A DNA stretch of 64,000 bases. It comes from Linnemannia hyalina (Eukaryota; Mortierellomycota; Mortierellomycetes; Mortierellales; Mortierellaceae). Position numbers and translations under genes: made by a program. The stretch lies in assembly GCA_019671135.1 (NCBI GenBank), contig JAHRHY010000001.1:3534001-3598000 (forward strand), read 5' to 3'. Below the pieces are notes generated by a model, which saw nothing but the letters and a program-made list of their open reading frames with translations, did no database searches and had not been told where the DNA came from. Below, one piece after another: positions 1 to 23,921 of the stretch (position 1 is the first letter of the stretch; every line of letters begins with the position of its first letter).

Positions 1-1186
1 TCGTGCAACCTTGGCTTTTTGGAAGCCTTTGAGAGCGAACTTCAAATGGATCTTGCATCTGGTGCTCGGTCAGGATTTCCCAAGGGCGACAAGTTGTGCT
101 TCCTCCGGGTTCTCGGCCAGATTTACTCGACATCGGATTTCCAGCATCAGGTCATCACCCCTGCCCAGTTCTTGATGAGCCAGTACCTCGGACAGTGCCA
201 GGTCGGATCGGTCAAGGATATTGCCTCGGGACTGATGCTCTGCAACCTGTTTTTGGACTACCAGACTCTTTCGAAGCGTGTTGTACCTGAGGCCATCAAC
301 TTTTTGAGCTCATCCTTGGTCTACCTGGCCCCCAAGGGTACCTTCAGCGAGGATGTGGATGAGCTCCCCGGTTCGTTCCCTATTCAGGATGTCAACATTG
401 CTGCTATTCAGATGACCACCAAGGGTTTGAAATCCGTAGAAGTCGAGCGTCTTTCGATCAACATGTTCAAGCTCAAGGACACTGCCCTCGAGAAGAACAC
501 CTACAGGTAAGTCCTTCGTCCTCCTGACGGGGCATATGAATTTTTTATTCTTTTGCTTGACGTGTTGCGCGGTTTTTGCTAACAAGGATATATATATATA
601 TTTTTAATATGAATATCGTCCAATTTTTAGGGTAGCGGCAATGTCAGCAGCAGCAGATATCCTCCACAAGTACGCCATCCTTTACGCATCCACAACAGCA
701 TTCTCAGAAATTTTCCAAGGCCCCCTTGGACTCCTCGAGAGGCTCTCAACTGTCCCCGAATTCTCCCCCAGCCTCAAGTCCCAACTCGTCAAGACCCAAG
801 ACCGGATCCAAAAACTCCAAGGATTCTCCACAGACAGTCGTACACCCTTGCAACTGCAAGCCCACAAACCCGTGCCCATCGCGTCCTATGTGCCCAAGTT
901 CGAGGAGGGTTACTCGTTGGACAAGCATTACGACCCGGATGTGGAGCGTTCTCAGGCTCACAAGCTAGAGGTCCAGTACAAGAAGGAGAAGAAGGGCGCC
1001 ATTCGCGAGTTGAGAAAGGATGCACAGTTTGTTGCACGCGAGAAGCTGCGTGTCCAGCGCGAGAAGGATACAGAGTACAATGCAAAGATCAAGGGTATCA
1101 TGTCGGGACTCGAGGCCGATCAGGGCGAGAAGAATGCAGAGACCAGGATGAAGCAGGCCAAGAAGAACAAGGGCAAGCGGAACTAA
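1..1186 (+). CDS. NOP14: Nucleolar protein 14 (NOP14), C-terminal part, 5' truncated
   Basis: NOP14 is a subunit of the U3 snoRNP/small-subunit processome and is needed for 18S rRNA maturation in the nucleolus. The window starts inside the gene, open in frame 1 from base 1. Exons are <1..506 and 631..1186, with a 124-base GT-AG intron that splits an Arg codon. About 350 residues are present. The helical middle contains the motif LFLDYQTLSKRVVPEAINFL. The C-terminus has the family signature YKKEKKGAIRELRKDAQFVA followed by a Lys-rich tail ending KKNKGKRN, which I recognise as the NOP14 C-terminal region. The stop is TAA at 1184-1186. The N-terminal part of the protein lies outside the window. 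The identification rests on the C-terminal signature and the domain order. Confidence 0.88.
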
Positions 1187-1685
1187 GTCCTTTTTTTTTT
1201 TTTTCTTCTTTCTTTTCGTCTGTTCGTATTTGTTTTCTATCTTTTTTTTTGCATTTTTCATTTTTCTCTTTCTTTCTCTACCATTACCATCTCACACTTG
1301 TTCACTAGACCACCCACAAATAAACACCCCCAATGCATATTATCATCATCATCATCATCATCATCATCCTCGTTGTCATGGTCGGAATAGTCCCTTGGCT
1401 TGTAGAGTTTTTTAAGTTTTGATTTATTCGGCAATGATGCGCCGTATGTACAATGAGCAACAGGGAGAGAAATGGAGCAGAGGAAGACTGGATTTCTTTA
1501 CAAGTACAAAGTAGAGCCCCAAAGGGCAGGAAGGATTAAGGGAAGTATGGTACAAGGGATGCAAAAGAATCTCCCCAAAAGGTAAATTCGCTATTGGAGA
1601 GGAGGGAGAGAGAGAGAGAGAGAAAAAGAGAAAAATGAAGCAAAAGACAGATATGAAAAGTAAAAAAAGGAAAAAAGAGAGAGAT
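1187..1685. other. Convergent 3' intergenic region with a (TCA)n microsatellite
   Basis: This region lies between the NOP14 stop and the stop of the opposing CRAL-TRIO gene, so it should hold both 3' UTRs. It has a T-run and T-rich stretch just after NOP14, a (TCA)9-type repeat at about 1342-1368, and a GA-repeat with A-rich sequence at about 1600-1680. I see no coding potential. Confidence 0.6.
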
Positions 1686-4087
1686 TTAAAGCAAGAGGGA
1701 ATCATCGCCTTCGCCAACAACAGTAAGCACCTTGACTGCCGTTGCAGCAATGAGCTGCCAGACCTCGCCCCGGAGCATGATGAGAGCCATGATCCAGTAC
1801 AAAAGCGTCTTCACATCCGTCCGGCGCATCTTGTCCGCACAAGCCTTGACAGCCTTGGCCGCCTTCTGGCGCATCCCCTGCTGCTTGGCCGCGATCTTCA
1901 TAAAGATCGAGTTGGGGCGAAGGATCAGACGGTAGAAGACTCCTCCTCGACCGTTGTTGTTGTTGCCGTTGCCGAGGATGTTCTTGGTGGGGTCGATATG
2001 GGTGTTGCGTGCGATGGTGGTGCGATCCTTGCGCGAGAGTGGGTACTGAACCGGCAAGTCTGACTGGATTGAGGGTGTGATCATGAATGAAGGGATGTGG
2101 GCGGTCGATTTAGAGTGCTTCAACAATGGTGCTTTCATAGGAGTTGACTTGCCGTAATGATGGTGATCATGGTTGTTGGTAGGAGTGTTGTTGTTGTTGT
2201 TCAAGTCGATGAAGGGGATAGAGTTGGAGCGGGTTCTGAGGAGGGCAGGGCGCAAACTCAAGTTGCCACTGTTGCTGTGGTTTGTTGAGTGGGCGTGGCC
2301 GCCATGAGGAGGGGCCATGGGCATCATGGGTGTCATTGACAAGAAGTTGAGGCCGTCGTGGGGACGCAATTTAGGGCTGTGCATGGGTGTTGACGAGCTG
2401 GCGTCGTAATAGATCGAGTCGCAAGAGTTGACACGGCTGAGGGACATGGTGGGCGTTCCTGGCTGCAGGCTTGACATGGGGTAGCCAAAGTAGTGGAAGG
2501 CCTCGCATTGCTCCGAGTCGTTCTCGTGCGCATCCAGTCCGCCAAAATCTAAAAGTAGAGAGAAGTATGCAAATGAAGAGAGACGATGGTCAGATATTGG
2601 CCAGTAATGAGGTCATGTAATAGGACATTGTCGTTGCTGTATCCTGTGACGCTGTGAATAGGCCATTCGGCTGCTTTGCATTCATGTGTTTGAGTTTAGG
2701 CCAATGGGTCGACAACATGATCAATACATCTCTCGTCTTGTCGTGTTTTTTTGTACAAATAACGAGGAACGTACCAGTGGAGAGATCTTCGCGATCAAAG
2801 TGCTCCCAAAGCTCATCGGTCGATGAAGGGAACGAAACACGCGCACGGGCTGACTCTGGAAGGGCACGCTTCAGCATCTGCCAGATGCCGCCAAAGACCC
2901 AGCTGTAGTTCAGGACGTATACTAAAATGGCCATGGTCACATGGTCACAAGAGCAAAGCAGAAAGAATGAGATCAGATCAGTTCCAGTTCATCTATTGTG
3001 CGACCCTGCACGTCGTCATACATTGTTGATTCACGGCTAGTAATAGAGTAGAGTCAAAGGGTGTAAACAAAAGCCCCACAATCCTCTCTCTCATTCATGG
3101 GTGAATTCAACCCGGTGGGTCGACCGAAAAATAAACAACGTAAAAAAAGGGGGGGGGGGGGTGGTCGTTGGAAGACTTTTTCTTTTTTTTTTCGTTCGTT
3201 CAGTCGTTGTTCTTTTTGTGGCCGGCTAGCCACATCGATTAATACACACCACCATGCGTGTTGCGTTGAAATCCGAGAGAGTGTGGGGTGATGTATATGC
3301 ATGCCGGTTATTTTTGCATGCATAAATGTCCGTCTGTCTTTACATCCCTTGCTTCTCCAATTGCTTTTAAAAAAAGTAAGGTCGGCTCGATATTCCAGAA
3401 TGACGATGATGAATGAATACGAAAAAAAGGAAAAAAGTTTCGTTTCATACCTTGGGCAAGACAGCTAGGGTAGCGATGCTTGAGAAGGTCGATGGTGTAC
3501 GTGATCAATTGGTGGTCGAGGTCAGAGACAGATGCTCCCTGGAGATCGAGGATGAGTGACGCCTGGAGCGAGTGCTCCTCAAGTGGTTGGCGACGGGAAG
3601 ATTCCCAGAGCAGCTTGCGGGTGCACTCCAACACAAAAATGATGTATCGTTTGTAATCCAAGAATCGATCCTCCTCTTCTTCACCATCATCCTCTTGTTG
3701 AGATTGTTGTGGAGCAGAAATGTATTGACCCAGGCGGATGACGATGAGCGGGTGTCCGTATCGGTCCTGTCCTCGGAGGTGGACGAGGTTGTTGGTCCAG
3801 AGCGGGTTCTTTTGGAGGTCTCGTGGGGTGATGCGATCACAGCCCATAGCTAACCTCCAGGCGACGTTGGCCTCGACGATGTTATAGGCCTCAGGGAGGA
3901 CGTAGTTTGCCTTTTTGAGGAAGCGGAAGAGGGTGATACGGTCGTTGAGGTAAGAGGTGGCGACGTCGTGGTGTTGGTGTGAAGGAGGGTATTGCTGTTG
4001 GACGAGGTGTTGGAGTTCGGTGACCTGTTGGATGTGGTCCTGGTACAGTTCCAAAAGTCCGTTTGTGGATCTCTCAGCAGCGTTCAT
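1686..4087 (-). CDS. CRAL-TRIO (SEC14-like) domain protein
   Basis: The exons, in transcription order, are complement 3451..4087, 2775..2921 and 1686..2548. All junctions are GT-AG and the frame closes at 548 residues. The start is the ATG at 4087, the first one after a pyrimidine-rich leader. An N-terminal CRAL-TRIO-N helical segment (about residues 48-85, FRFLKKANYVLPEAYNIVEA) is followed by the lipid-binding lobe (about 100-262). That lobe includes ILDLQGASVSDLDHQLITYT and, across the first splice junction, VLNYSWVFGGIWQMLKRALP, the typical SEC14 groove and gate region. The C-terminal half is Ser/Asn/His-rich and low-complexity, and ends in a hydrophobic stretch near WIMALIMLRGEVWQLIAATA that may contact membrane. 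SEC14 proteins move or present phosphatidylinositol and related lipids at membranes. The ligand of this member cannot be read from the sequence. Confidence 0.88.
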
Positions 4088-4467
4088 AATGAGAAGTGAG
4101 AAAGTATGTAGATGGAATGAGCGAAAGGGAGAGAGAGAGAGTGAGAAAGGAGAGAAGGAGGGGAAAAAAAGAGAGGAGGCGTGTTGTGGAGATGGATGAG
4201 AGTGGAGAGGGGAGGTGGAGTGGAGTGAGTCGGGGTTAGAGTGAGAAGGAAGAAGAGTTAAGGGTTGGGTAAGAGAGAAGAGAGAAAAGAAGAGAGAAAA
4301 GAAGAGAGAAGAGAGAAGAGAAGGAGCCGAGAGGGGAAGAGGAAGAAGGGTACAAAGAAAAAACAAAATACACAGAGGGGGAATTGAGAGGAGGAGAAGG
4401 GAAGGGGAGAAAGAAGGAAGGAAGGAGGGGGCAATGGTCTCTGGCTGTTTGTTTGTTTGTTGTTTGA

Positions 4468-4504
<37 letters not shown>

Positions 4505-5847
4505 GGAGAGAGGCACAACAAGAACACGGATATAAAATGTATTGTACTCCCTGGCTCTGGCTGGTGGAGGAGGTGGACCGATCAATTTCACATGTGAAGG
4601 CTAAACAAATAGCACATACTCTACCCCCCCTACGCACTTCATACCCACGCTACTCTCCAAAAGAAAAACTTTCTTTGCTGCTCGCTCCACTCTCCATTTC
4701 CCCTTTTTTTTTAATGATTCCTTCGCCCGACTTCTTACTCTTGCACGTTCAATTCCCCTTGCGCGTGGGATTCTTCATTCTTTCTTAGTTCCGTAGGCAA
4801 TTTCACTTTTAATAATGTCATTGAATATATGAAGAGACTGTGCTGCGAATGCCATCGTCTGCTTTAGCCATTCAGCCGCATCGCATACCAGTGACAGAAA
4901 GAGAGAGAGAGAGAGAGAGAGTGAGAGAGAGTGAGAGAGGCAGGTTGCAGTGACAAGACGAGGACCCGGACCTGAATACAAAGACAAAGAGCAATGACAA
5001 ACACAGATGCCCGCTACTTCTTTTTGTGGCCAAACAGGTGTTCAGGACCACGTTCCTTGGAACTTGTGCATGCATCTTTTTTTTTCTTTTCTTGACACTT
5101 GAGAGCAACGCCTTTGTGCAATAGTCATGTGACTTTCAACAAAGCCACATATATCATCAAGAGAAGGGTATGCACTGTTTGTCTCATTTCTGAGACAGCA
5201 GAACAGACCGTTTTTGACCCTTCTGCCGGTACGGAACACAAGCAGAAGGGGAACAGAGACCTGCAGGGCTGCAAGGTTCAAGAAACTTGTTCAGGAACAG
5301 GTTCCACGGCGTCCACTTGATCAATCGATCAACCCTTCCCCGCAATTGAATTTTTAATTTGTGATCATCACTGACTGCAAACACTGCTGTGCCTATGTAA
5401 CGTCAGGAAGGGCTTTTCGTAGAAAGGGCTAAGGGCTAATTCTCATAGATCACAGGCCATAGTATATCACTTCCACGTTTCTTTGTTTCTTGCACTGTAC
5501 GTGGAATTGCTCATAATTCGTACGGGTGTTCCTTTCCTCCGCTCGCTTCATCATCGTCCTCCGTCCTTACTTCCGGAGACTGATAGGATGGGCGATTGAA
5601 AAATTCGTTGTCCCCAACTCCAACTCCGCTCTTCTCCCAATCCATTCAGCAGCATCCGCTATTTCTTTTTTTCTGCTTCCATTGCCTTTCAGCCTTTTGT
5701 CTCCTATTCAACTCCGATCTCACCCCCACCATCTCTCCTCTCTCTTTTCTCGCCTTATAAGCTGCTCTCTTGCCCTTTTTTTTTTTCTTCTTTCTTTTCT
5801 TCTTCTTCATCCCACCCCTCCCCTCTCTCCCCTCCCCAACACTCAAC
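4088..5847. other. Divergent intergenic/promoter region with long purine (GA) tracts
   Basis: This region separates the CRAL-TRIO gene (-) from the NDUFA4-like gene (+). From 4110 to 4515 it is almost pure purine on the + strand (pyrimidine in the CRAL-TRIO leader), with a (GA)n block at about 4468-4510. A second (GA)n block lies at about 4898-4938. C/T-rich sequence also precedes the NDUFA4-like start at 5690-5840. The middle (4940-5500) has no gene I can support. Confidence 0.6.
4110..4515. repeat. Low-complexity GA/CT purine tract in the CRAL-TRIO leader
   Basis: Roughly 400 bases of nearly uninterrupted purines on the + strand, built from GA, GGA and GAA units and ending in a perfect GA dinucleotide run. 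On the coding strand this is a C/T-rich leader, a common fungal promoter/5' UTR feature. It produces long open frames without stops that are not genes. Confidence 0.75.
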
Positions 5848-15737: not shown

Positions 15738-16069
15738 TTGGTTTCTGGAAGGAAGAAGTAGGGATGGAAAGGATTCGAGTTGAGGAAGGAAAGAGGAGAT
15801 GAATGAGGAATGAAAAAAAAGAAGAGGAGGAATAAAGCGTCAAGGTGGTGCGGGCTTTCCCCTTTTATCCCTTCGTTTGTCTCTCAGCCAAATTTGCGTG
15901 ATATTTTTCATTTATCGAGGATTACAATAAAATGGGTTGAGAGACCAAACCTACCGATCTAAAACAAACGTAGCGTGCTTTTTCAGGGTGCTGTCGTCCA
16001 GGTTGCTATCTCATAACCATCATCCCCTCCTCCCATCATATCCTAGTCTCCACTTCACAATCCTCATTC
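15738..16069. other. Divergent spacer between the membrane-protein gene and the piggyBac transposase gene
   Basis: This holds the start side of the membrane protein (-) and the 5' flank of the transposase. I searched it for a TTAA target site, the piggyBac integration signature, and found none. No terminal inverted repeat was recognised by eye. Confidence 0.5.
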
Positions 16070-17944
16070 ATGCCCGAAACGATTTTGCCCAACCCAACTA
16101 ACAACTCTAATATCGAAATCCTTGGATCCTTTGATGTCCATAAGACGCCATTTACGAATGAACCAAATGAGTTGCTGTTCTCAATATCTCGCCGCCCTCA
16201 GGAGCTGTTTAATGATGATGACATCAGTGATGATGAGCCGTCGACACAAGGAAAGGTCGAGGATGGTTGCCTATCGTCTTCCTCTTCCTCAGCGCAAACA
16301 AGGATGACTGACAAGAAGATTGACAGCAAACCATGGACTCTCCCACCGCCCCCGGACTTCAAGAATATCTTCATGCACACAAAGGAGGAGCACGCGGCAC
16401 AAGCTGATGTTCCACTCGCATTTCAACTCGACGGCGAACTTTCACCTTTGACCCTTTTCACGCTCTTTTTCTCGGATTCGGTATGTTCACAAATTGCAGT
16501 CAATACCAACGCTTATGCAGCACCAAAAGGAGCTGGAGAAGTAGAAGGGTCACGCCACTGGGAGAATACGACCTTGGGCGACATACATATATTCCTAGGC
16601 ATCCTTGTCTACATGGGCATATTCCGACTACCCTGCGTCGAGGACTACTGGTCAACAAACCCAAACTACCCCCAACATTCGATCGCTCACTTCATGACCC
16701 TTGTTCGCTTCCAACAATTGAAGCGTTTCCTTCACGTCTCCCACCCAGACCTACTGGAAGAACATTGGTACTCGAAGGTAAAGCCTCTTACCACTAAATT
16801 GGCACAGGACTTCGCTCGCTACTACATCCCATCCTCCAATGTCTCCATCGACGAGATGATTGTTCGCTTTTCAGGAAGGAGTAGCCACACTGTCCGCGTA
16901 AAGGGCAAACCCACACCGGAAGGCTACAAGATTATCGCTCTTTGCCAAGCAGGATACACCTACTCCTTCCTCTACACATCTCGCATCAATTCTATCGTTG
17001 GCGTAGAAAAAATAAACGGACTGACTATGACCTCTTCAGCGGTTGTTCATCTCGCCAAAACACTCCCTTTTTCGACTCGTCACTACAATATTTACATGGA
17101 CAACTACTTCTCCAACATTCCCCTCTTTACTTATTTGCGCCAACTCCAAATCGGCGCTTGTGGTACTGTCCGTGTCAACTCTGCTGGAATCCCCAAATGA
17201 CTCAAGGTGCCGAAGGCCAAGAAGTTAGCATGGAACACTCTATCTGGCATTGTCGTCAATAATCAAGTCCTCGCTGTCATTTGGATGGATAATGCACCCG
17301 TCGGCATGCTCAGCACCATCCACAAAATCCACATGGACGATAACTTTATCGAGCGTATCCGTCGCTGTCCTCGCAACACCAGTACGAACGCCGCTAATGC
17401 TCGGGCAGTATTCAATGGAAATCCTACAGTTCCGCTCAAAATACCGAAATTGATCGATGACTACAACCACAACAAGAATGGAGTCGACCTCAGCGATCAG
17501 TTCAGATCATACTACTGTACCCAACTAACCGTTGTCAGGACATGGATGCCCCTATTTTTTTGGATTCTCGACACCACCATTGTCAACTCTTATCGTATCT
17601 ATACCGTGCGAAAGGGGACTCTTACCCACAAGGAATATCGGTTCAAATTGGCATGGGCCTTGATCGCCTCAGGAGCACTCAACCAACACCATTCCATGAT
17701 GAAAAAACACAAACGAGAGTGCGATGCGACGTCTGACAACCACCCCAGGAAGACCATGCACGTTACCAAAAACACTGTGCTACCCCCCAGCCGTTTTGTC
17801 CCCGGTTTCCACTATGGCCAATACTCCGATACCCGAGAACTCTGTCTCCTTTGCCGCTACAGAGCCACTGTCCTCAAGGACAAGAGCTACAAGAGTTCGA
17901 CGCAGACAAACTGGGTCTGTAAGGATTGCAAGGTTCCTTTGTGA
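16070..17944 (+). pseudogene. piggyBac-type transposase gene with one in-frame stop
   Basis: A single continuous frame of 625 codons is interrupted only by TGA at 17198-17200 (codon 377). No frameshift or deletion is seen. The DDD catalytic triad of the DDE_Tnp_1_7 (piggyBac) family is present: Asp261 in SIDEMIVRF, Asp344 in YMDNYFSNIPLF, and Asp473 in NGVDLSDQFRSYYC (numbering counts the stop codon). The C-terminus carries the piggyBac-like cysteine-rich zinc domain (CLLC, then CKDC). piggyBac transposases cut and paste at TTAA. Here the stop separates the third Asp and the Cys domain from the rest, so a full-length enzyme is not expected without readthrough. TGA could arise by C-to-T change from CGA. 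The N-terminal 377 codons and the C-terminal part are both well preserved, so inactivation is recent or selection persists on part of the protein. No flanking TTAA was found. Confidence 0.9.
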
Positions 17945-18423
17945 ATGTCAAAAGCCCGTAACTCCTTCGAGGATTTCCATCAGAATAGCAAGAGGACAAG
18001 AAAACATATGAAGAATGAATAAAGCCCTCTACTGCAACATTCGCATGAGTGTTACGCTTTTCACGCAGTTGGGTGGCTTAGACGCGAGATTCATGTGTAA
18101 CGCGGTCCGCTCACAATTATTTTGGCTCCTTGACCTTTCCACCATCCACACACCTTCCTCTTTCCATCCACAAACCAACGCCACCATCCACACACCAAGA
18201 AACACCACCCCCCTACACACAAACAAACACCAACAAACAAACACCGACAAACAAATCCAAACGAAAACATACAACTAGCATACACTTCTGAACACCGACC
18301 TCCCCTTTCACATTGGTATGACCGAGCACAAGCCTGCTTGCAGCTGTTTGCTTCTAGGTGTTGCCATTGCTAGAGGACTGATGCTAATCGCGGCTATTTT
18401 TTTCCCTACTTTTAGTCGTCATC
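17945..18423. other. Spacer between the piggyBac gene and the XPG-Fanzor gene
   Basis: 479 bases holding the likely promoter/leader of the XPG-Fanzor gene. From 18145 to 18260 it is rich in CA/CCA and ACAAAC units. A T-rich tract ending in an acceptor-like TTTTAG (18409-18414) lies 10 bases before the chosen ATG and may be a leader-intron acceptor. No TTAA and no clear terminal repeat were seen. Confidence 0.5.
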
Positions 18424-21400
18424 ATGGGTGTGGACGACCTGAGCGCCAAAATAAAGAAAACTACAGGAAAAGTCGACTCTCTCCTGGACAAGACTTGTCA
18501 TGTCGACCTCTTCGGATCATTCTACGCCCTCCTCAACACACGCGCATATCACACGACTGCCAAGCACGTCGCCAAAGAGGCCAGAGTGCAGGTGTCTTTT
18601 GAGGTGTCGTTCGATCCCGTGTCGTCGGACAAATCGTTGAAGCGACCTAACATCGCCCCACATCCACCCTGCAACATCACAGGAGCTCGACCAGCAAAAG
18701 CACCTCATTACACCTCGTCGGACCCCGTATCTCCAGCTCAAAATAACGCAGGATCAACTACTACAGAGATCGATCTTCCATCTTCCTCGAATCCAGCAAC
18801 TATGCTGATCGACACAGGGCTACGGAATACGGCACTATCCTCCGCTGGATCCAGCTCACACGACCCAAATCGATCAGGTCCGCCAGTAGCACAAGGAGGA
18901 GCTGATGGTGGCAAAGATTTGACTCTGCCCGACACAGACCAGCCAGAGCAACCTCAGCAAGTCACGCAGGTCTCACTCGTGGAGGCAATCGAGGAATTAT
19001 TACTCCAAGAGCCCAAGGAGATATACATCGACCTGGATGGCCATCCGTCAGTGACACCCCAGCAACGAGAGGACAAAGAGGTATATTTTCGTGGCCACAT
19101 CCAATGCACACGAGCGTATTTGCGCGGATAGATTCAAAAATAAGGGATATGATTGAACATAATGCATGACTCTTTCTTTTAATTATTTGGCATTTTAGTA
19201 CTTTGGACACATCGGGCTGGTCCTTGATAACCTCCTCTCAAGCAGATTGTCCAAGGTGCACACTATCATTCACGTCGACGGACCGCGTTCTCTGGAGAAG
19301 GAGGCCGAGCACAAGCGACGCGACGAACGTCTTCAGAAATCGCTCGACAAACTCACCCCCACCGCCACCAAGGACAAATTAGAATCCGGATTGGGACTCA
19401 AGGCAGTGTATAGGATATGCCGCTCAGCATACAGATTGCCGCCAGAGGCATTGGAACAGGTGCTGGGGGTGATGGAGAACAGTGGTTGGAGAGTATGCCG
19501 TTGTGCACACCAATCAGACCTGTGCATTGCGTCGCACGTCCGTCGAGCTCCTGAAAAGTCCGCCATACGTGTCGTAACCCACGATTCCGACCTTTTGGCC
19601 TATGAGGATATTCATTCCATCACCATTCCGGCTGGGATTTCAAGGGACTGGACCACATACTACAAGGACGAGCTCCTGATCAAGTTGGATCTGCCCTCCC
19701 CGGCCCATCTCGTACTCGTGTCTATTGTAACAGGAAACGATTACACCCGAGGGGTTCCCTACTACGGATTGGCGAGCAACACGGCAATTATCCGGCATTT
19801 CGACTTCGGGGTTTTGGGGGCAATGACAGGACAGGATCTGGTAGAGGGGTTTGAGAGACTGGTGGGTGACTATTTGGATGTGGTGAAGGCCAAGGCGGAG
19901 GATACTCGGAGGTCGGCAGGCCAACGACAACAACAACGGCGACAACGCCGAGCGCAACAAATTCGCCGCCAGACACCTCCACCAGAGTCCAAAGCGGAAC
20001 ACAGGGATCAAAAGCGCATAGATCGCGCAGATCTGCAGCTGGCTGTGACCGTGGCTGATTTCCAAGGTGCAATCGGGGCGTTCGTGTCCTGTCAAGAGTC
20101 TCCACAATCAACCGATGGGTCCCGACCACCTCCTGCATATGACGCCGTCCGTTCTACACTCTTGGAACTAGAAATGAGGAAGGCCAGGATCAATTCTTCC
20201 AGAGTCAAGAGAATCGGGGTTGCCGCCGAGACAAGAGATGCCTCGCTTGTTGCCGAAAGCTTGATGGATGCGGGCGAGCCTTCAACTCTCATAGTCCCCG
20301 CAGCGAGTGCCGGTCAGCAGGGCTACTTCGACTCTGGTCGCGGCGGTAAGGCCAAGGCGGAGCGGACAAGGAAGCACAGAGGTCCCCGCAAAAATCGAGC
20401 CAACAGGAAAAGGTCCAACAAGTGGAGGAAATCCATGTGAGTGGAAACTTGGATAATTTTTGCGTATTGGCGACCAAATTGCTTTCTGCAGGCTTTTTAC
20501 TAATACTCTCAATGTTGATATTATTTCTTGTTGTTAGGTTCCGAAGAAGGACCGATCTTGCCCGCCCCTATGAACCGCATAAGGTCTTTCTTCCTGATGC
20601 CAGCCCAGTGGAAGAGGACGCGCTCCAGCATCTAACGCCATCAATACCTCGACCATTCAAACCCAAACCCGACTCCAGCAATAACAACAACGACGATAAC
20701 GGCAACAACAAGAGCAACAAAAAGAAGCGCAAGAAGCCCTTAAAGCTACCCGCGGACAAGGAGGGGCCTAAAGCTCTAAAGAAGTCATTCGGTGGCGCTT
20801 TCAAGATGTTGGTACTGACAGCTGGATCACTTTGGGGCTGTCTCCGCCGCGCAACCGATCTGACATCAGAGGAGATTTCCCGAGTCGTCAACAGGATCGA
20901 CCGCGCCGTCTTCGTGATGAACTCCGCGAAACATGTCGTCATGAAGATGCTCGAGTTCTTTATTCTACGACGTCTGTTGCCTGCGCGAAACCAAGAGGAC
21001 CGACCCCAGGACAGTCATGAGGAAGACGCTATGTTCGGCGACGATGCTCTTGATCTTCTGCTTGGAAAGGACAGCGCAGGGGTCATCATTCGAAATCTCA
21101 TCTCATTCGCCCTTCGAGGATCCACATCGGCGCAGGCTGGACGGAGAGCAGAAAAGGCCGAGTCTATTAGCGCATATGCTCTCGCCATTTCTATCTTCGA
21201 GCAGTTCCGAGCTTTGCACCCATCAATCAAGGCGCTCAACCCTGACCATATACCCCTCTCGAATGTCCAGCAGGATTTGGCGCCAAAGATCTGTTTAGCG
21301 ATCAAGATGCACTACCGAAAACTGCCAACAACTATAGTCAACAAGGTAATGCTCTACTAACAAGTTGCATGCGAAAGTGCGCATTGAAAGTGGATAATAC

Positions 21401-23227
21401 ATATATAAAATTATAATAACGCCAATTCATTCCTTTTTCCTTTATGAATCTAGATGAAAAAGCTTGGTTTCGAATCATCGACAATTCCCTCCTGTGATGG
21501 AGAAGAGGAGGAGGAGGAAAAGGAGGAGGAGAACGGCGATGAATTTCGGGATGTAGCGGAGGAGACCACCAATAAGTCCGACAAGATTGTCTTCGAGGCC
21601 GGTCACATCAAGACCTGGTGGGATGAGATGCTCCGACTCCCATACGACCAGAGACCGCGCTTCTGTATTAGTACGCAGTTGGGTGACTCGTTTCTGGACA
21701 TCAGCGAGGAAGCTATTCTGGCAATTCTCTGGGGAGAGTCATCGGGAGATGTGGGCAGGACGATGGAAGCCAAGGTGCGGAGTAGGACGGAGGCCAAGGA
21801 GGACCAGGAGTCTGACTATGGCGGGTTGATGAGGCGTCTCTTTATCGGCAAGCCAGAGGATCTGGTGAACAAGGAAGTCAGGCAGACGACATATGGCAAA
21901 AAGACTACGACCATGCAGGAGCTCTCTACCCAGCACCCACAGATCTACGGACAAGGATCCCTTGCACGCTACACCATCCGAAGGGTTAACGTCCTGCGGG
22001 AAATACACAATCAAAATCTGACAACACCCACACAGCCAACAGCAACAACATCAACTTCATCATCAACAGCGGCGCCACAGCTACCCGCGCTGCCTTCACC
22101 CACCGGCTCCATGGCGACAAACAAACGATACGCATTGAGCAACTACCTAAGAACTGATGGTCATCAGCTACAACTACTCGCGTTTGATGTGCGACGAGGT
22201 TGGGAATCCTCTTTCTCCAAGAACAAGCTTATTCACAGGATCGAGACAGACTTCCCGACAAGACAGTCCATTGTCGATTGGTTTGGGGATGACATGTCCT
22301 CTGTCGTTGTCGTCGGTGTGGACCCAGGAGAGAAAGTCAGCGGCACCTTTTGTGTGAGGCTCGGCGAGGATTGGGCCGTGAATCTGTTGGTCAAGAGAAG
22401 CTCTTTATACCAGCCGACGTTAGCGCATCGGAGCTGGATGCAGGACTTGAAAGGAGCCCAGCCGACGGCGGACTCCGGGGGGGCACTAGATGGAGGCGTG
22501 TGGGCAGTCCAGGACCCATCCAACCCGACCAAGACGACCCTACTACCAAGTATGTTCGATATTGAAGGAACACTGCAGCCGACCTCGTACGAAACATGGG
22601 ACAAGATGGTCGAAGCCCACCGAAAGTACTTGTCTGCGGAACCACTGCTTCACGAATTCTATGGATCGCATACTGTCAAGTTCGCCAACTACGAGCACCG
22701 CAAGGCCAAGTTGTCGGAGATGGATCTTGCTGTTGCTGGTGTCATGAGGTTGGTGGAAGCGGCGGTATCAAGGATTCCCGAGGGCAAGACCCCTACCGTA
22801 CTGTTTGCATGGGGAAACGGATCGTTCCGTTCTGGCTACAACTTAACCTCGCAGCATATGACATTGCAGCGACGGCTTGCTCAGAAGGTAATAGCACAAA
22901 CGGACACGGTTCAAGTGAAGCGCCAATTCAATGAGAATAAGTGCAAGTACCAATCAAATTGCTTTATTTTCTACAAACTCGTAGGCCCGCGAAAGAGGGT
23001 ACTTGGTTCTGTTAGTCGACGAGTACCTGACTTCTACAATGTGCCCCACTTGCGTTGCGGTTGGAGTGTCAACAAGATTGGCGAAACCCTCAATGCGTGT
23101 TTGCGCCTGTTTGAAGTGTCAAAGGTGGATTCATCGGGATGTGGTCGGGGCGCATAATATTGCGCTTGTTGGCGAGCAGTATGTGCGGACTCTTGGACGA
23201 CCAGCGCCCCTACTACGACCTCTATAA
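18424..23227 (+). CDS. XPG/FEN1-like nuclease fused to a Fanzor (TnpB-like RuvC) nuclease
   Basis: Five exons (18424..19080, 19199..20436, 20538..21345, 21454..22887, 22985..23227) with four GT-AG introns of 97-118 bases give one frame of 1459 residues. The N-terminal half is XPG/FEN1-like. It starts MGV and has an acidic position in CHVDLFGSFYALL, IIHVDGPRS (D246), an XPG-I segment WRVCRCAHQSDLC (Q324, D326), VVTHDSDLL (D348, D350) and TGNDYTRGVPYYG (D400). A strongly basic linker (about 599-637) follows, then a helix-rich region. The C-terminal half is Fanzor: the pre-RuvC motif SNYLRTDGHQLQLL (near 1136), RuvC-I VVGVDPGEKVSG (D1191), FAWGNGSFRSG (near 1354), VDEYLTSTMCPTC (E1392, C1399, C1402), CLKC (C1421, C1424) and RuvC-III HRDVVGAHNI (D1431). 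Fanzors are RNA-guided DNA endonucleases of eukaryotic mobile elements. The fusion is inferred from frame continuity; two separate transcripts remain possible. Confidence 0.85.
20231..20556 (+). other. Basic hinge / likely nuclear localisation segment of the XPG-Fanzor protein
   Basis: This covers the end of exon 2, the 101-base intron 2 (20437..20537) and the start of exon 3. The protein there (about residues 599-637) is dominated by Lys and Arg, e.g. RKHRGPRKNRANRKRSNKWR, and sits between the two nuclease halves. It could be a nuclear localisation signal or a nucleic-acid-binding linker. The intron lies inside the linker, so the domain junction coincides with a splice site. Confidence 0.55.
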
Positions 23228-23629
23228 TTTCAACATCGACCATGTTGTAGAACTATCCTAACCCTTAACAGGGGAAGGGATATTCCCGAACCTCACAGCC
23301 CTCGCTTTTGGAGTTTTAAAAAGCTGCAGCCCACCCTCTGGACAGACAGGCACAAGACCCTGAAGTCAACTGCGATCTAAAAAAAGGCCTGCTTAGCCAT
23401 GGTGTCACCAACAAAACAAAGGCAACAAAGCAGATATAAAAAAGCGCATCATTGATACCTGACCGGGGCTATTCTTCTTTATATCAAGGGAATCGAATAA
23501 AAAGTACTGCCTCACCTTCGACTGATCCTTTGGTGAATGCCTGTCTATGCAAGCAATAGAAACAGCGACTTGTTCTCGCCATAGAAAACAGAACAAAAGA
23601 GAAAAAGGAGACCAAAAGCCAAAAGATTA
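23228..23629 (+). other. 3' flank of the XPG-Fanzor gene with small hairpins; candidate guide-RNA (omega-RNA) region
   Basis: Immediately after the stop is a perfect 6-bp hairpin (CAACAT 23231-23236, five-base loop, ATGTTG 23242-23247). A second 5-bp hairpin follows (GGGAA 23272-23276, six-base loop, TTCCC 23283-23287). TTAA occurs at 23265-23268. In Fanzor and TnpB elements the guide RNA is typically encoded at or just past the 3' end of the nuclease gene, so this is where one would be expected. The assignment is inference only. The rest, up to the tRNA, shows nothing coding. Confidence 0.3.
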
Positions 23630-23712
23630 TGAAGAGAGTGGGATTTGAACCCACGCCTACGAATAGACCGCGGCCTTAACGCGGCGCCTTAGACCAACTC
23701 GGCCATCTCTCC
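23630..23712 (-). tRNA. tRNA-Leu (anticodon AAG)
   Basis: Reading the minus strand, 83 bases fold as a type II tRNA. The acceptor GGAGAGA pairs with TCTCTTC (one G-U). The D-arm is GCC/GGC, and the anticodon stem CCGCG/CGCGG encloses loop TTAAGGC with anticodon AAG. A long variable arm follows, then the T-arm GTGGG-TTCAAAT-CCCAC and discriminator A. The long variable arm and AAG anticodon give tRNA-Leu reading CUU/CUC codons. No intron is seen. It lies about 400 bases past the XPG-Fanzor stop and 210 bases upstream of RPL26. Confidence 0.95.
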
Positions 23713-23921
23713 AAGGGATAATCCTTTGTTGGAGGAATTTTCTCCAGTGGTACTTTGTACTCACAATGAAAAGTTAAATTATCACATGACACAGGCACGT
23801 GCCGACAGTGTCACGTGCTGTATTCAGAAAAAAAAATGAGCTTGCTTGATGTTTGAAAGTGGTTCACCGGCCTTCCACAGCGGCTCCTTCCTCTCTTTCG
23901 TATCCATCCACTACTACTACA

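Follow-up and report, generated by a model that had tools for sequence, protein, structure and literature searches.

A predicted fusion of an XPG-like domain with a Fanzor nuclease in a transposon of Linnemannia hyalina

Introduction

Fanzors are eukaryotic RNA-guided nucleases related to the CRISPR nucleases and are often linked to transposons. Among the structures listed, the solved chains of Fanzor1 proteins (SpuFz, GtFz and PpFz) comprise 590-726 residues. Here we describe a gene from the mortierellomycete Linnemannia hyalina, a soil fungus of the Mortierella group, in which a whole further nuclease domain is predicted to stand in front of a Fanzor. The gene lies within a transposon in a stretch of 64,000 nucleotides (C1:3534001-3598000, forward strand, referred to as the window in the following) of the host assembly, which comprises 51.5 Mb in 50 contigs. 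Like the transposon-borne Fanzors described before, as far as excerpts of their published account go, the encoded protein appears to be cargo of a DNA transposon; unlike here, those excerpts refer neither to XPG nor to flaps or Mortierella, and mention piggyBac once, for a DEDDh nuclease. The additional half resembles the FEN1/EXO1/Rad2-XPG family in its predicted catalytic-core fold, in its profile matches and in its acidic cluster, but differs from it in being part of a transposon-borne Fanzor fusion and in featuring, in the group of sequences around the window protein, a glutamine at the position of FEN1 E158. To our knowledge, no member of this family has been described in such a fusion. 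The portions of Fanzor papers covered by a term search mention neither XPG nor flap, no paper in the open-licence PMC literature combines the terms 'Fanzor' and 'XPG', and the passages retrieved there that pair Fanzor with piggyBac do not deal with a piggyBac element carrying a Fanzor. According to excerpts of its description, the engineered Cas9-EXO1 'exonuclease editor' likewise combines a programmable nuclease with an exonuclease, i.e. human exonuclease 1; it is man-made and based on Cas9, whereas the fungal protein is natural and known from sequence (PMC11107001).

XPG-like and Fanzor parts reside in a single gene

The gene extends from position 18424 to 23227 of the window (+) and consists of five exons that keep a single frame for 1459 codons plus stop, interrupted by introns of 118, 101, 108 and 97 bases, all of which are bounded by GT..AG (Table 1). 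This is exactly the model of the original prediction (five exons, four introns of 97-118 bases, 1459 codons), which had been made from the DNA letters and had proposed the fusion of a flap nuclease with a Fanzor. It did not include the surrounding transposon with its piggyBac-type transposase, the dozens of recurrences in the genome or the glutamine in place of one catalytic glutamate. Judged by sequence comparison, the XPG and Fanzor halves indeed form one fused gene, and the fusion is genuine and recurrent. Alignments of the window protein to those encoded at five other places in the host genome begin where exon 3 opens (residue 631, its first codon) and end at residue 902 (L021-L024) or 909 (L035), the border of exons 3 and 4 being located at 901/902. 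Exon 3 resembles the other families at 40-45% identity and, at about 20824-21345, is already matched by the profile of the Fanzor N-terminal part. The intron at the XPG/Fanzor junction is found at the same place and in phase 2 in the window, L022 and L035, which represent three families with roughly 40-50% protein likeness. A separate Fanzor gene starting at the ATG that opens exon 4 (21454) was considered as a candidate and rejected, because homology to the Fanzor N-terminal part covers exon 3 and a protein begun at 21454 would lack this part.

A divergent XPG-Fanzor lineage provides the second line of evidence. At L061 (C23:1073400-1078900), an intronless frame of 1392 codons (382-4560) contains the XPG motifs GEAD, GDSD and NDY (profile E 3.1e-17) together with the RuvC-like motif MDPG, while a last, separate exon (4526-4780) encodes the TNB (PF07282, 1.7e-10). 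In a profile-profile comparison the long frame matched residues 2-1035 of the Mortierella sp. protein P0016 with an E-value of 2e-28, and its C-terminal half alone matched residues 439-1035 with 9.7e-13, the RuvC aspartates of the two being aligned to each other; of 20 shuffled controls, the best reached 0.03. As one frame encodes both XPG and the Fanzor RuvC region, two genes are excluded at L061. Together with the homology in exon 3, this frame carries the fusion, at the level of sequence, past the first objection that had been named beforehand, namely two separate genes with a start at 21454. The second, namely that homologues might never have the two halves joined, does not apply, since both occur in one predicted protein in 39 of 63 database homologues.

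In the database models P0007 and P0008 the N-terminus of a piggyBac transposase is joined to XPG-Fanzor. These are probably mis-joined neighbors, possibly products of alternative splicing, and they indicate that automatic gene models in these elements are unreliable.

Properties of the two halves

The Fanzor half is the more readily recognized. The window protein contains a Cas12f1-like TNB zinc ribbon (PF07282, E 2.7e-9, above the Pfam family cut-off) as well as the motifs VGVD (residue 1188), DEYLTST (1391), CPTC (1399), CLKC (1421) and HRD (1429), which bears out the complete Fanzor C-terminus claimed originally. The catalytic RuvC set D..E..D was assigned by motif to D1191, E1392 and D1431, on the basis of what we take to be the typical pattern. 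It agrees with the residues D383, E541 and D606 given for SpuFz1. In the full-length model predicted for P0016 (1186 residues; predicted local distance difference test score, pLDDT, 79.8), residues 445-1124 match SpuFz and PpFz and adopt the REC/WED-RuvC fold of the solved Fanzors. The two Fanzor profiles used here were each built from eight pieces; since these include the window and part of the 63 proteins, matches to them are by construction.

In the same predicted chain, residues 2-297 form the other nuclease module, with EXO1 and FEN1 tied as the nearest folds. The catalytic-core fold of FEN1/XPG/EXO1 is thus present in predicted structures of relatives, and in homologue P0001 the EXO1/FEN1 fold match begins at the counterpart of the methionine of window exon 1. 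A profile of related XPG pieces matched Rad2 (3.8e-7) and FEN1 (7.1e-5). The XPG profile applied to the database homologues was built from 11 pieces, to which again the window and part of the 63 proteins contributed; its matches to these are likewise by construction. With Pfam, the window protein alone yielded no XPG family, and XPG_I was seen in three related pieces at 7e-5 to 7e-3, under the family cut-off. The assignment of the window half is therefore based on the profiles and folds of relatives.

At the FEN1-type acidic positions, six of seven residues in the window protein are acidic (D28, D246, D326, D348, D350 and D400). D28 was assigned by reading; the column of FEN1 D34 is misaligned in our alignment of 36 rows and was left unused. 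Equivalents of FEN1 D86 are acidic in 31/31, of E160 (as Asp) in 32/32, of D181 in 32/32, of D179 in 28/31 and of D233 in 33/35 rows with a residue at that position. The XPG-type acidic motifs originally noted in the first 400 residues consequently hold for six positions and fail at the seventh, where a catalytic glutamate is replaced by Q324. On the strength of these models, the window half is a domain of the FEN1/XPG/EXO1 fold and not a proven active flap endonuclease, and EXO1-like end trimming appears at least as likely as flap processing.

Recurrence in the host genome and in databases

An XPG-like stretch is located upstream of and on the same strand as the TNB at 62 of the 91 TNB places in the host genome, with 0.5 expected by chance. 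The distance amounts to 1.4-3.9 kb (median 3117 bases), and a piggyBac-type transposase resides further upstream in 26 of these 62 cases. Conversely, 21 of 84 merged XPG places have no TNB match in range. This census was based on all 91 TNB rows (one under the family cut-off), on 64 of 67 and 45 of 100 rows of two further match lists, and on 39 transposase places from 67 rows, the omitted rows being judged second pieces or already listed.

The 63 database homologues comprise 47 from the first two protein searches and 16 from a third. Each search scored about 8000 candidates, such that relatives beyond Mortierella-group fungi are conceivable. Where organism names are given, they belong to Linnemannia, Mortierella, Entomortierella, Haplosporangium, Dissophora, Podila, Benniella and Actinomortierella; Linnemannia hyalina is a mortierellomycete according to its taxonomy, and the other genera are presumably also members of the Mortierellomycota.

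The host transposon

A copy of the window element on C5 (L019) is about 97% identical to it. In a related family recognized by frames of 114 residues, ten places share the left end TTATCCC with differing flanks, and in nine of them the right end GGGATA lies within the piece examined. The terminal inverted repeats TTATCCC..GGGATA are common to other families as well. Identical ends in different surroundings indicate, at the level of sequence, that the element is mobile. Elsewhere in the host genome, transposase matches without internal stop are present.

A possible function and its alternatives

We propose that the fusion protein is a dual-nuclease transposon cargo that combines an RNA-guided cut of the empty donor site with 5' trimming favoring element-restoring repair. 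If the gene is expressed, the transposase would excise the element, and the donor site left empty would be cut by the Fanzor with a guide RNA whose end lies in the flank beside the element's right end. The 5' nuclease joined to the Fanzor would then trim the 5' ends of the break and promote homologous repair from a sister or allele still carrying the element, which would thereby be retained or copied. EXO1 resects 5' ends of breaks, and it belongs to the best fold matches obtained for the fused domain. In the published excerpts, engineered Cas9-EXO1 increases homology-directed repair and decreases end joining (PMC11107001), and recombination in a yeast is enhanced by fusing an exonuclease with Cas9 (PMC9450370). 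From this combination, the fused domain most likely trims 5' ends at the Fanzor cut. The cut of the emptied donor site is suggested by analogy with TnpB, which reportedly retains insertion sequences through a guide that records where they are inserted (PMC11870625). We assign a probability of about 0.5 to the proposal as a whole. More tentatively, transposons of the Mortierella group may have evolved an RNA-guided nuclease with built-in EXO1-type resection, such that every cut of an empty donor site would feed into homologous repair by which the element is restored or copied; in effect, this would be a selfish homing system that controls its own repair pathway. The conserved joining of Fanzors to a DNA-end nuclease fold suggests that the processing of breaks belongs to their role. 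If active, the protein would constitute a ready-made cut-and-trim editor, the very property for which Cas9-EXO1 fusions were engineered, and the XPG-Fanzor fusion looks like a natural counterpart of these hand-built editing tools.

A number of observations weigh against the proposed dual-nuclease cargo. Names of nearest folds derived from predicted structures are no proof of activity, and with Q324 at the place of FEN1 E158 the full set of seven acidic residues is not present, which renders catalysis uncertain in the window's group. XPG matches are missing at 29 of the 91 TNB places, and no match to the XPG profile is seen in 24 of the 63 homologues, of which 21 have less than 850 residues. 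P0011 from L. hyalina is annotated without XPG although it is 95% identical to the query based on L031, where XPG is present upstream. Neither our Fanzor hidden Markov models nor Pfam matched the long frame of L061. The copy L019 has decayed: the frame used in the window is interrupted there by four stop codons, several indels are present as well, and the evidence for selection drawn from this copy is weak (pN/pS 0.72). The left flank of the elements is always TTA and the right always TA plus a variable base, so that a TTAA target-site duplication is absent and the element is called piggyBac-type for its transposase only; TA is a possible duplication, CAT occurs on both sides in L024 and GCG in L057/L058, and the others exhibit no clear repeat. 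A guide RNA was not found: at four loci, of which two are identical, folding of the 3' ends did not exceed that of shuffled sequences (z -0.7 to -1.3). As the right end of the element lies 55 bases past the stop codon, a guide RNA ending in the flank would have to begin within the last exon unless it is very short. In exon 5 there is no clear excess of silent-site conservation, fourfold sites being alike in 22/65 cases versus 54/191 in exon 4. For a guide RNA overlapping exon 5, neither folding nor silent sites gave a clear signal.

The substitution at the FEN1 E158 position also underlies the alternative that survives best, in which the XPG half of the window's group would be catalytically dead or weak and serve as a module binding DNA structures, through which the Fanzor would reach flaps, gaps or replication forks. 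Glutamine occupies this position in ten sequences of the window's group and glutamate in 21 others, the eleventh group member, P0056, being mostly gapped there, and a long low-complexity insert follows D28. Conservation of the equivalents of D86, E160, D181, D179 and D233 would be unexpected for a dead site, and we consider this alternative unlikely.

Still less probable is a role of the XPG half in processing RNA, e.g. in guide RNA maturation, or transposition intermediates instead of the Fanzor cut. XPG family members with RNA-related roles exist, and the XPG-Fanzor gene shares its transposon with a transposase. The best fold matches, however, are DNA nucleases, and 36 of the 62 paired places have no PF13843 match in range, which argues that dependence on piggyBac intermediates is not general.

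Decay of the window copy into a transposon gene that currently serves no function is suggested by its interrupted transposase frame and the broken sister copy on C5; it is improbable in view of an XPG-Fanzor frame that is open across 1459 codons. Hardly credible, finally, is a wrong merger of two neighboring genes, an XPG-like one and a Fanzor gene, that belong to the same transposon: retention of intron 2 would stop the XPG frame at TGA 20438-20440 and the XPG profile is missing from the 24 database models, but these are mostly short, the inspected genomic places without XPG (three of 29: L026, L028 and L036) are 5'-truncated or broken, homology opens with exon 3, the junction intron is kept in place and phase, and at L061 a single open frame covers both parts.

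Further features of the element and its surroundings

The features of the window element are compiled in Table 1.

Table 1. Features of the transposon carrying the XPG-Fanzor gene (window positions)
Feature	Position	Strand	Remarks
Mobile element, about 7.4 kb, transposase and XPG-Fanzor gene	15865..23282	+	Homology limits versus C5 copy L019 (1095-8765)
Left terminal motif TTATCCCTTCG	15865..15875	+	Element end
piggyBac-type DDE_Tnp_1_7 transposase	15974..17944	+	Frames 15974-17200 and 17201-17944, stop between; PF13843 E 7.1e-52 and 2e-6
Exon 1	18424..19080	+	Start of XPG-like domain (MG.., D28) and low-complexity insert; fold match of homologue P0001
Exon 2	19199..20436	+	Remaining XPG-like domain (D246, Q324, D326, D348, D350, D400) and basic linker
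Intron 2	20437..20537	+	Phase 2; separates XPG part from Fanzor part
Exon 3	20538..21345	+	Linker and Fanzor N-terminal part, from about residue 729
Exon 4	21454..22887	+	Fanzor middle part and RuvC with D1191
Exon 5	22985..23227	+	Fanzor TNB zinc ribbon with E1392 and D1431; stop codon
Right terminal motif GGAAGGGATA	23273..23282	+	Finishes 55 bases past stop codon

The elements L025, L027, L029 and L031, assigned to clade B (clades A and B are working labels that are not derived from a tree), have different ends, with GTGACGTA..GCGCCCATT at the right end. PF13843 is absent upstream of the clade B elements compared; other transposase families were not searched. On the small contigs C29 (L037) and C37 (L038), an isolated 267-base fragment of exon 4 (window 21482-21748) is found that is about 98% identical. 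A gene for tRNA-Leu (aag) is situated on the minus strand of the window at 23629-23713, about 350 bases past the right end of the element.
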